64,000 bases of DNA, taken from Ilumatobacter fluminis (GTDB lineage: Bacteria > Actinomycetota > Acidimicrobiia > Acidimicrobiales > Ilumatobacteraceae). Location of the stretch: NCBI RefSeq assembly GCF_004364865.1, contig NZ_SOAU01000001.1, forward strand, positions 1,674,001 to 1,738,000, in the 5' to 3' direction. Below are positions 28,463 through 31,485 of this stretch, in pieces. Numbering within the stretch: the first letter of the stretch is position 1; each line of letters opens with the position of its first letter. Made by a program: the position numbers and the translations under genes. The notes under the pieces are model-generated. The model did no database searches. It was not told the DNA's origin and was given only the letters and a program-made list of their open reading frames with translations.

Positions 28463-30127
28463 TCAGGCGGCGAGGCGGAGGTCGGGTGGGGCCTCGAGGG
28501 GGAAGCGCCACTCGCCGGTGCACGAGACGATCTCGAGCCGATCGGCGTGCTTGTCGAAGTACTTGGCCAACACCAGCACCTCGTCGACGTGGCGGCGGGG
28601 GAGCGGGAGCGTGACGTCGACCGGGTCGGGTGGGTCGACCGGCAGGGCGCGTCCGGCGGTACCGGTGACGACGACGTCGACGAGACGTCCGTGCTCGACG
28701 ACCCACGCCCGGTCGCCGTGGCGGACCGTGCACCGGTCGGCGGCACGAAGCGCGTCGGTGAGTCGCTGGCGGCGCACGGCTCCGAGCAACGCCGACACCC
28801 GGTCGCGGACCATCGCCGCCTCCTCGAACCGTTGCGCCGCCGCGAGCTCGGTCATGCGCACGCTCAGGTGCTCGACGACCGGGTCGGCATTGCCCTCGAA
28901 CAGGCTTCGGGCCGCGGCGACGGCAGCGTCGTACCTGAGCCGATCGGCCTCGCCGGCGCAGGGGCACATCGCCACCCCGAGCTGCGCGGAGCTGCACGAG
29001 ACCGCGTCGGGCGCCGGGGTGTGCCGAGCCGACAGTCGGGTCGAGCAGCGACGGAGCGGCAGCACCGACTGGATCGCCTCCACGACCAACGCCGCCATCT
29101 TGCGCGACGGGAGCGGCCCGAGATGGACGCCCTTGGCGCTCGGGTCCTTCACCACCGACAGGCGTGGCCACGGTGACTCGACGTCGAGCCGGACGTAGCA
29201 GTACTTGTCGACCCGGGTTCCGGCTCGGTTGTAGCGGGGGAGCATGCGGGCGATCAGTCGCGACTCGATGACCTCCGCCGTGACCGGATCGGGCAGTTCG
29301 AGATGGCGGATCGTCTGCATCTCGCGCAACATCGGCCCGATGCGACGCCGGTCGTCGCGTCCGAAGTAGCTGCGGACCCGCTGGCGGAGATTGGTGGCCT
29401 TGCCGACGTAGAGCACCTCGTCGCGGTTGCCGCAGAACATGTACACGCCGGGGGTGCGGGGGAGCGACGACGTCATCGTCAGCTTGCGCGCCTGCGGGTG
29501 CCCCGCCAGCTTCGCGATCGACGTGAGGTCGTCGAGCCCGAGGACCCCGAGCCCGGCAGCTCGTTCGAGCAGGAGGTGGAGCAGGTCGGTGGTCGCCAGG
29601 GCGTCGTCGAGTGCGCGGTGCGTCGGGGTGTGGTCGAGTCGGAGCCGGGACGCGAGCGTCGACAGCTTGCAGTTCGGCACCTCGTCGCGCAGCATACGTC
29701 GTGCCAGGGCCGCCGTGTCGACGACGGTCGGCTTGTACTCGCTGCGACCGTCGCGCTCGAACGCCGCGCGTACGAAACCGAGATCGAACGATGCGTTGTG
29801 TGCGACGAACACCGAGTCGCCGAGGAAGTCGCGCAAGGTGCCGAGCACCGTCTCGATTCGCGGAGCGGTCCGGACGACGGCGTCGGTGAGGCCGGTCAGG
29901 ACGGTGATCTGGGGCGGGATCGCCCGGCCCGGGTTGACGAGGGTGTGGAACGTGCCGAGGCACTCGCCGCCGCGCACCTTGACGGCGCCGATCTCGGTGA
30001 TCATGTCGTCGGTGCGGCTGCCGCCGGTCGTCTCGAGGTCGAGCACGCAGAACGTGACCTCGTGCAACGGCGTGCCGAGGTCGTCGAAGCTCCGCTGCCC
30101 GACGACGGCCCGGGGCGCCGGCATCAT
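28463..30127 (-). CDS. DEDDh exonuclease fused to a UvrC-type GIY-YIG nuclease
   Basis: 554 residues. The N-terminal DnaQ-like 3'-5' exonuclease (about 20-190) has CVLDLETTG (Asp30, Glu32), HNASFDLGF and HRALDDALAT. The GIY-YIG nuclease domain (about 230-310) starts TPGVYMF and has VLYVGKATNLRQRV. A later region (about 400-440) has a UVR-like helix, AAAQRFEEAAMVRDRV. This is the Cho/UvrC-N-like fusion known in Actinobacteria, probably acting in excision repair. ATG 30127 follows GGGAG. Two SOS-box-like palindromes lie 38-70 nt upstream, so LexA control is likely; E. coli cho is also SOS-induced. The last part has an unassigned C-terminus. Confidence 0.88.
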   Translation of the reverse strand: MMPAPRAVVGQRSFDDLGTPLHEVTFCVLDLETTGGSRTDDMITEIGAVKVRGGECLGTFHTLVNPGRAIPPQITVLTGLTDAVVRTAPRIETVLGTLRDFLGDSVFVAHNASFDLGFVRAAFERDGRSEYKPTVVDTAALARRMLRDEVPNCKLSTLASRLRLDHTPTHRALDDALATTDLLHLLLERAAGLGVLGLDDLTSIAKLAGHPQARKLTMTSSLPRTPGVYMFCGNRDEVLYVGKATNLRQRVRSYFGRDDRRRIGPMLREMQTIRHLELPDPVTAEVIESRLIARMLPRYNRAGTRVDKYCYVRLDVESPWPRLSVVKDPSAKGVHLGPLPSRKMAALVVEAIQSVLPLRRCSTRLSARHTPAPDAVSCSSAQLGVAMCPCAGEADRLRYDAAVAAARSLFEGNADPVVEHLSVRMTELAAAQRFEEAAMVRDRVSALLGAVRRQRLTDALRAADRCTVRHGDRAWVVEHGRLVDVVVTGTAGRALPVDPPDPVDVTLPLPRRHVDEVLVLAKYFDKHADRLEIVSCTGEWRFPLEAPPDLRLAA

Positions 30128-30164
30128 CGATCTCCCAACACGATCATGGCGGGTGATCAAAGCA

Positions 30165-30197
30165 CGAACGCGTGTTCGCGTCAAGAACGCTTGTTCG
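30165..30197. promoter_or_regulatory. Two tandem SOS (LexA) boxes
   Basis: CGAACGCGTGTTCG at 30165-30178 fits the actinobacterial LexA box CGAAC-N4-GTTCG exactly. AGAACGCTTGTTCG at 30184-30197 differs in one base. They are 19 bp apart, about two helical turns, upstream of the DEDDh-GIY-YIG nuclease and in the shared divergent region with the NYN gene. No other copy was noticed in the window. Confidence 0.75.
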
Positions 30198-30261: not shown

Positions 30262-31485
30262 ATGGAGCGCCCTGATGTCGAACCACGCCACCTGCGCTCC
30301 GCCATCGAGTACGCGGTGCTGATGGCGCAGGAAGGGCAGAAGTTCAAGCCCCCGCTCGCGTACCCGGCGCCGCTGAAGCGCTACTTCACCACCGATCGCA
30401 TCCCCTCGTCCGTTCTCGCGACGCTCGCCCGTGCCATCGAGGGCGACGAGGCGTTCCGCAAGAAGATCGCACGGGGCGCCGTTCCAGAACTCGTCGACGA
30501 GCTCGGTCGTGCCTGGCTGAAACGGCCGTCCGGTTGGGTCGACGACGTCACCCGCCTCGCCGCCGAGGCCGACGCCGCTACCGAGGAGGCAACCGCGGCC
30601 AAGGCGCTGAAGCGAGCCGAGAAGCGCCGTGCAGCCGCCGAACAGGTCGCTGCTCGCAGTCGGGCCGAACTGGTCGCCCTCGAGGGGTCAGTCGCGGAGC
30701 GCGACGAGGTGATCGAGGGCTTGCGCTCCGACGTCGTCAAGCTGCGCGACGAGATCGACGAGATCCGTGCCGAGCTGATCGACACCCGCAACGAGGCGCG
30801 CCATGCCCGCGACCGGGAGGCGGCGGCGGTCGCGAAACTCGCCGACGCCGAGGCGGCGCGCAGCGCTGCGGTCGAGGCGAAGGGGTCGGCCGAGATCGTC
30901 CGTGACGAGGTGTTGGCCGACCGGGCGGCGCTCGCTGCCGAGCGGTCGGAACTCGCTCGCCTCGCTGCCCACGCCGAGTCGCTCGCGGCGCAGCTCGCTG
31001 CGCTCGCCGCGCCGCCGACTGCCGGCAAGCCGACAGCGGTCGCTCGCAAACCGCTGCCGATGCCGGGCGGTGTCATGGGTGATTCCGAGGCCGCCGCCGA
31101 GTACCTCCTCCGCTCCGGGGCCTCGGTGCTGATCGACGGGTACAACGTCGCCAAGCTGGCGTGGCCGAAGCTCGATCTCGAGGGGCAGCGTGTCGTGCTG
31201 CTCGACGCAGTGGAGAACCTGGCTCGTCGGTACGGCAGTGACATCACGGTCGTGTTCGACGGTGCCGACGTCGTGGGTGCGGTCGCCGATCAACGCCGGG
31301 TCGCACGAGTCGTGTACTCGCCGGCCGAGGTGATCGCCGACGACGTGATCCGTGACGAAGTGGGCCGGCTCCCGCCGACGCGCCAGGTGGTGGTGGTCAC
31401 GAACGACCAGGAGATCATCCGCGACGTGCGCGCCAACGGCGCCAACACCATGTCGAGCGACCAGCTCCTCGCCCTCATCCGCTGA
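30262..31485 (+). CDS. NYN-domain protein with coiled coil (YacP-like)
   Basis: 407 residues. The N-terminal helical domain (about 1-95) has LKRYFTTDRIPSSVLATLARAI. A long Ala/Glu/Arg coiled coil (about 100-255) leads to a C-terminal NYN (PIN-like) nuclease domain (about 285-405). Its signatures are VLIDGYNVAKLAWP, VVFDGADVVG, YSPAEVIADDVIRDEV and VVVTNDQEIIRDVRANGA. The acidic residues fit an RNase, as proposed for YacP/Rae1-type proteins. TACAGT (30250-30255) precedes the ATG by 6 nt, a leaderless start. It is divergent from the repair nuclease and shares its SOS-box region. Confidence 0.88.
   Translation: MERPDVEPRHLRSAIEYAVLMAQEGQKFKPPLAYPAPLKRYFTTDRIPSSVLATLARAIEGDEAFRKKIARGAVPELVDELGRAWLKRPSGWVDDVTRLAAEADAATEEATAAKALKRAEKRRAAAEQVAARSRAELVALEGSVAERDEVIEGLRSDVVKLRDEIDEIRAELIDTRNEARHARDREAAAVAKLADAEAARSAAVEAKGSAEIVRDEVLADRAALAAERSELARLAAHAESLAAQLAALAAPPTAGKPTAVARKPLPMPGGVMGDSEAAAEYLLRSGASVLIDGYNVAKLAWPKLDLEGQRVVLLDAVENLARRYGSDITVVFDGADVVGAVADQRRVARVVYSPAEVIADDVIRDEVGRLPPTRQVVVVTNDQEIIRDVRANGANTMSSDQLLALIR

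Follow-up and report, generated by a model that had tools for sequence, protein, structure and literature searches.

The nuclease gene and its LexA boxes

A 64,000-nucleotide stretch of the Ilumatobacter fluminis genome (the window, meaning the whole stretch that was analyzed) carries a gene for a fusion of a DEDDh exonuclease, a GIY-YIG nuclease, and a UVR motif, hereafter the nuclease. A sequence-only reading of the window had placed one exact and one near-exact LexA box, 19 bp apart, upstream of this gene. Both were located; they lie 19 bp from each other, start to start, with a gap of 5 bp. The features of the gene and its control region are:

28463..30127, minus strand: DEDDh exonuclease–GIY-YIG–UVR fusion gene, 554 aa (coding 28466-30127, stop codon 28463-28465)
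28751..29473, minus strand: UvrC-like region, residues 219-459, with GIY-YIG, cysteine cluster, and UVR motif (Pfam, alignment, profile-profile match)
29555..30055, minus strand: DEDDh exonuclease domain, residues ~25-191 (Pfam, invariant residues, structural match)
30156..30161, minus strand: proposed weak -10, TTTGAT (by eye; 17 nt behind the -35; position 2 is not A)
30165..30178, no strand assigned: LexA box 1, exact, CGAACGCGTGTTCG, filling the space between the proposed -35 and -10 of the nuclease gene
30179..30184, minus strand: proposed -35 hexamer, TTGACG (by eye; between the boxes, overlapping box 2)
30184..30197, no strand assigned: LexA box 2, one mismatch, AGAACGCTTGTTCG; the mismatch, at the last base on the minus strand, supplies the first T of TTGACG

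A single exact box says little by itself, with 0.29 expected in 64 kb and at least one present in 23 of 100 shuffles. The tandem pattern, which was formulated after the arrangement had been seen, is unique to this site in the window and appeared in none of 100 shuffles with up to two mismatches allowed. The likely start of the nuclease is an ATGATG preceded by GGGAG (read by eye), and the nearer box is 37 bp away from it. A mechanical call of open reading frames (ORFs) gave a longer frame with its start at 30286, which was rejected because it would enclose both boxes.

The scan of the genome for CGAAC-N4-GTTCG that the earlier reading had proposed covered one contig of 4,775,416 bases and gave 25 exact sites, compared with none for the reversed control. 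Eight of the 25 have the stricter spacer RNNY, a filter taken from the sites near lexA and chosen after looking. For the 24 sites other than the one at the nuclease gene, 3 kb of surrounding sequence was read, and the genes beside the RNNY sites were scanned. On this basis, seven of the eight exact RNNY sites lie upstream of lexA, recA, the gene of an error-prone DnaE2-type polymerase, imuA', dinB (DNA polymerase IV), uvrB, and the nuclease gene. With one mismatch allowed, the strict RNNY pattern has 245 genome sites, mostly unexamined. Moreover, the lexA loci of 18 relatives (L031-L048) each carry arrays of 3 to 6 boxes within 300 bp. Judged by their sequence, the nuclease boxes match this genome's own LexA box, as found at lexA and recA, and the match makes the gene a member of the predicted SOS set. 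The interpretation of the sites as LexA boxes is thus borne out by the other SOS genes of the genome and, as discussed below, by conservation upstream of orthologues.

The eighth exact RNNY box (G000:C1:1958009-1958022; L054 1510-1523) lies upstream of mraZ, a regulator of the division cluster, and raises the possibility of an SOS link to cell division. In addition, two box-like sites coincide with or immediately precede the start of a gene for an AlkB-like 2-oxoglutarate-Fe(II) oxygenase (L071 832-1470); one is exact with a spacer other than RNNY, and the other has one mismatch.

The description of the protein as a DEDDh-GIY-YIG fusion related to UvrC/Cho agrees with its Pfam domains, its family, and its match to UvrC profiles. 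The whole protein is a member of NCBIfam NF005907 (PRK07883; 538.8 bits versus a cut-off of 454, residues 7-546). The Pfam domains, all above their cut-offs, are RNase_T/DEDDh at residues 28-182, GIY-YIG at 227-260, and the UVR motif PF02151 at 424-447 (23.3 bits versus 21.5 for the last). A UvrC-like match spans residues 220-459. Across 22 aligned homologues, D30, E32, D115, H170, and D175 in the DEDDh domain and Y229, Y240, G242, R248, E288, and N300 in the GIY-YIG part are invariant; we take these residues to have catalytic roles. By the alignment, both domains are intact. C361, C378, C388, and C390 (window 28953-29047) are likewise invariant in the 22 homologues, and their position matches the cysteine-rich stretch of UvrC, for which an iron-sulfur cluster has been reported.

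In the AlphaFold model (mean predicted local distance difference test score 81.9, predicted template modeling score 0.57), residues 17-209 match the exonucleases of PolC, DinG, and DnaQ with Z-scores of 25.4 to 21.5. The UVR segment fits the C-terminal hairpin of UvrB (2d7d_B) with a root-mean-square deviation of 0.5 over 35 residues, at a Z-score of only 3.0. Profile-profile comparison with UvrC of ten relatives aligns nuclease residues 215-459 (E 6.5e-35) and ends at residue 459, short of the RNase H-like and HhH part of UvrC. Residues 460-554 (window 28466-28750) form a small, confidently modeled beta/alpha region with no clear structural match, the best being the UVR hairpin and no other row exceeding a Z-score of 2.5; a remnant of the second half of UvrC may still be present there. 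An ordinary uvrC with both halves is also encoded elsewhere in the genome.

Conservation of the boxes and the gene they serve

Of 25 related loci having an upstream region, 22 carry a box with no more than one mismatch. These loci are L001-L026 minus L008, located at the end of a contig; of the partial matches left out, L028 has no box, and the exact box of L027 lacks the RNNY spacer. In the phylum-wide sample, 124 of the 296 genomes encode the protein (E up to 1e-60), and upstream DNA was available for 122, since G076 and G185 start at a contig end and were excluded. L010, L013, L015, L023, and L024 are common to both samples. The RNNY box (at most one mismatch) occurs in 63 of the 122 upstream regions and is exact in 55, while dinucleotide shuffles gave means of 0.9 and 0.0, respectively. 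Boxes were counted at 15/19 loci in the window's own class and at 48/103 in other classes; the latter count is why we dropped the idea of a box confined to Acidimicrobiia and Nitriliruptoria.

The absence of the box follows family. With the families grouped after the result had been seen, none of the 50 loci in eleven families (f39, f51, f45, f53, f67, f58, f55, f78, f75, f42, and f28) has a box, compared with 63 of 72 in the remaining nineteen. For the fusions of f39, f53, and f42 (20 loci, L289-L308), neither an RNNY box with at most one mismatch nor the PafBC motif introduced below was found to ~1.3 kb upstream; two one-mismatch sites, either without the RNNY spacer or far away, were left uncounted. 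The fusions of these three families have an N-terminal extension.

The boxes are situated in a divergent region, and the gene on the other side is:

30262..31485, plus strand: divergent coiled-coil/NYN_YacP gene (neighbor; NYN_YacP domain by Pfam), probably outside the regulated unit

Of 28 related loci, 13 have tandem boxes with a spacing of 19 or 20 bp. Every box 2 among them ends in GTTCT followed by TGA, that is, the base that spoils box 2 creates the TTGA(C) of a -35 element. The occurrence of GTTCTTGA was recounted with a pattern not demanding it, as the earlier count was circular, its pattern having required GTTCTTGA. Across the same 13 loci the NYN start codon lies anywhere from 29 to 89 bp away from box 2, while the overlap of box and -35 is fixed. 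Moreover, no NYN gene was found in loci L017, L019, L020, L024, L025, and L026, and that of L018 is on the downstream side of the nuclease gene; the box is retained in 7/7 of these loci examined without NYN upstream.

Because the box/-35 overlap is fixed, the NYN distance is variable, and the box persists without NYN, the boxes are assigned to the nuclease gene on comparative grounds. That the boxes lie between two divergent genes could mean that they serve the NYN gene, or both genes equally, and the sequence-only reading had suggested that the NYN gene, too, might respond to DNA damage. Given the variable distance and the boxes kept in loci without NYN upstream, we rejected the NYN gene as their main target; its control by LexA is poorly supported, and we regard either version of this explanation as very unlikely. 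Still harder to credit is a chance origin of the boxes or their binding by some other regulator. A single exact box in 64 kb is no rarity, but the box is conserved and present at lexA and recA, and a chance origin was rejected on the shuffles, both for the tandem arrangement and for the phylum sample.

LexA boxes and PafBC motifs across the phylum

For the mycobacterial PafBC (RecA-NDp) motif, the portion of PMC8151990 drawn on here gives TGTCGG-N10-TA-N3-T and variants with AG or AC. We divided 80 named loci, after the boxes had been seen, into 42 Actinomycetes and 38 others; the group label is doubtful for several metagenome-assembled genomes (MAGs; L079, L083, L085, L100, L107, L115, L133, and L148), and L073/L006, L076/L015, and L089/L017 appear to be duplicates. 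The motif lies within 300 bp upstream in 38/42 Actinomycetes loci and in 2/38 others (L093 and L115); shuffles of a pattern close to it gave a mean of 0.03. Exact LexA boxes have the opposite distribution, 0/42 versus 21/38. With one mismatch allowed, the counts are 4/42 (all Actinomadura, with the box more than 180 bp away) versus 27/38. Restricting the count to the 31 non-MAG records, every one of them from the Actinomycetes group, gives 29 with the PafBC motif and no exact box. In the phylum sample the motif was found in 12 of 122 loci (f51 8/8, f55 1/1, f58 2/2, plus L023 of the window's own family). None of the 122 has both the motif and an exact box, and 55 have neither.

A tree of 147 proteins contains a clade of 50, defined independently of the labels Actinomycetes and other, with 41 PafBC, no LexA, 4 carrying both, and 5 carrying neither. 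The labels LexA and PafBC change three times in total on this tree, a quick LG+G4 reconstruction that was midpoint-rooted for drawing, has no outgroup, and brings long branches together (L273 and L275). Since the PafBC clade is nested among LexA rows, the topology suggests that LexA control is older and PafBC control later. L023 and L093, outside the Actinomycetes clade, have a PafBC-type motif and no LexA box before the fusion, which may reflect an independent exchange or chance.

In the whole I. fluminis genome, TGTCRG-N10-TAN3T has only 2 matches versus 4 for the reversed control, with none at the nuclease. PafA is encoded, and the downstream flank of pafA (by eye) has a signal-peptidase-like ORF, not pafB/pafC. 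Two adjacent WYL-domain genes lie beside a DEDDh-only ORF (G000:C1:3534095-3536087); their identity as a PafB/PafC-like pair is unconfirmed.

The promoters of uvrB were compared in two sets. Of the 30 loci fetched for the window's relatives, the partial L359 was dropped; the remaining 29, full-length or nearly so, have an exact box in 8, a box with one mismatch or none in 10, and the PafBC motif in 1. For the relatives of G078, 30 were fetched and the partial L387-L389 dropped, and 25 of the 27 have the PafBC motif with no box in any. As far as these sequences tell, uvrB and the nuclease gene carry the same promoter type in both sets. UvrABC has been placed in the mycobacterial PafBC regulon, according to the part of PMC8223512 consulted. 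What would be new for uvrB is the LexA promoter on the Acidimicrobiia side, with the fusion going the same way. We think it somewhat likelier to hold than to fail that LexA control of the nuclease gene is ancestral to several actinobacterial classes and that this gene and uvrB swapped the box for a PafBC promoter in the Actinomycetes lineage.

The nuclease gene appears to have kept its place in the damage response under a changed regulator. Because a damage promoter, whether LexA or PafBC, is conserved, the comparison argues for the nuclease as a genuine damage-response repair factor. If the exchange is true, an excision-repair branch would have moved from derepression through RecA and LexA to PafBC activation triggered by single-stranded DNA, still within the damage response. 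A second global damage regulator might then take over a repair pathway, as the nuclease gene and uvrB (the two genes examined) differ in the same direction. The natural LexA/PafBC split also offers a way to ask which damage signal the nuclease needs.

Proposed mechanism and comparison with known systems

We consider it likely that the nuclease gene is a LexA-repressed SOS gene encoding a second, damage-inducible excision-repair nuclease. LexA on both boxes would cover the -35 and the spacer and block RNA polymerase. Upon DNA damage, RecA-stimulated cleavage of LexA would free the promoter; binding by LexA and induction are the part of the model in which we have high confidence. UvrB probably recruits the nuclease via the UVR motif, and a partnership with UvrB has good prospects of being right in view of this motif and the promoter type common with uvrB. 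The GIY-YIG domain would nick 3′ of the lesion, and the DEDDh domain could then digest 3′-to-5′ from the nick through the lesion, leaving a gap for a polymerase to fill. For this order of events, an idea already in print in 2002, we see the case as evenly balanced. A 5′ incision by the nuclease itself is not expected, since no homology to the RNase H-like and HhH parts of UvrC was found.

Several findings weigh against this model. L010, L022, and L023 (3 of the 25 related loci) lack a box at one mismatch or fewer, as do 59 of the 122 upstream regions in the phylum sample, and the uvrB of Acidimicrobiia has one in only 10 of 29 loci. A strict consensus scan gave no promoter, and the proposed -10 is poor. 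Furthermore, the genome has an ordinary UvrC, and the fusion may thus only feed nicks to it.

The last point leads to an alternative in which the nuclease is a Cho-like helper: GIY-YIG nicks 3′ where UvrC is poor, UvrC cuts 5′, and the exonuclease merely trims. The separate uvrC with both halves is in keeping with this role, and E. coli Cho acts in this manner, as described in the relevant passage of PMC1564403. However, the fusion to an exonuclease with invariant DEDDh residues suggests more than trimming, a point that is not decisive, and we hold the helper role to be possible, on the doubtful side. Alternatively, the protein could be SOS-induced and act without UvrB on damage structures of other kinds (flaps, stalled forks, or recombination intermediates). 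Its nearest exonuclease folds are of the DnaQ/PolC/DinG type, which act outside excision repair; on the other hand, the UvrC-like region with its UVR motif and the promoter type common with uvrB make this role improbable.

In its protein, the nuclease does not differ from the actinobacterial Cho variety (PRK07883, DEDD exonuclease domain-containing protein), which has the same domain order and whose M. tuberculosis member is presumably Rv2191. E. coli cho is LexA-controlled, as is predicted for the gene discussed here. Compared with E. coli Cho, the nuclease adds a DEDDh exonuclease, and its UVR motif replaces the Cho C-terminal domain; compared with UvrC, it aligns up to the RNase H-like and HhH part. 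The likeness to Cho is that of a second UvrC-like, 3′-incising GIY-YIG nuclease beside UvrC, as covered by the sections of PMC1564403 available to us. These sections also report the mycobacterial fusion, distinguish a betaproteobacterial from an actinobacterial variety of such proteins, the latter with a UvrB-binding domain, and cite Van Houten, Eisen and Hanawalt 2002 for the idea that digestion starts at the nick and proceeds through the lesion. No test of that 2002 idea was found in the literature searched.

Regarding regulation, the Streptomyces and mycobacterial LexA regulons are the closest systems, and the S. venezuelae consensus tCGAAC-N4-GNNCGa resembles the nuclease box (PMC9380542, in part). 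The main text of that paper has no mention of UvrC, exonuclease, or GIY-YIG. Neither LexA control of these nuclease genes nor the LexA/PafBC split was found in the literature searched (titles, abstracts, and passages), and mycobacterial PafBC regulon tables may well list the orthologue. PafBC promoters set the Actinomycetes orthologues, which carry the motif, apart from the I. fluminis gene, from which it is absent. The family is already known and the nick-then-chew role already proposed, and the new part is the conserved operator fused to the -35 together with the apparent exchange of LexA and PafBC promoters.
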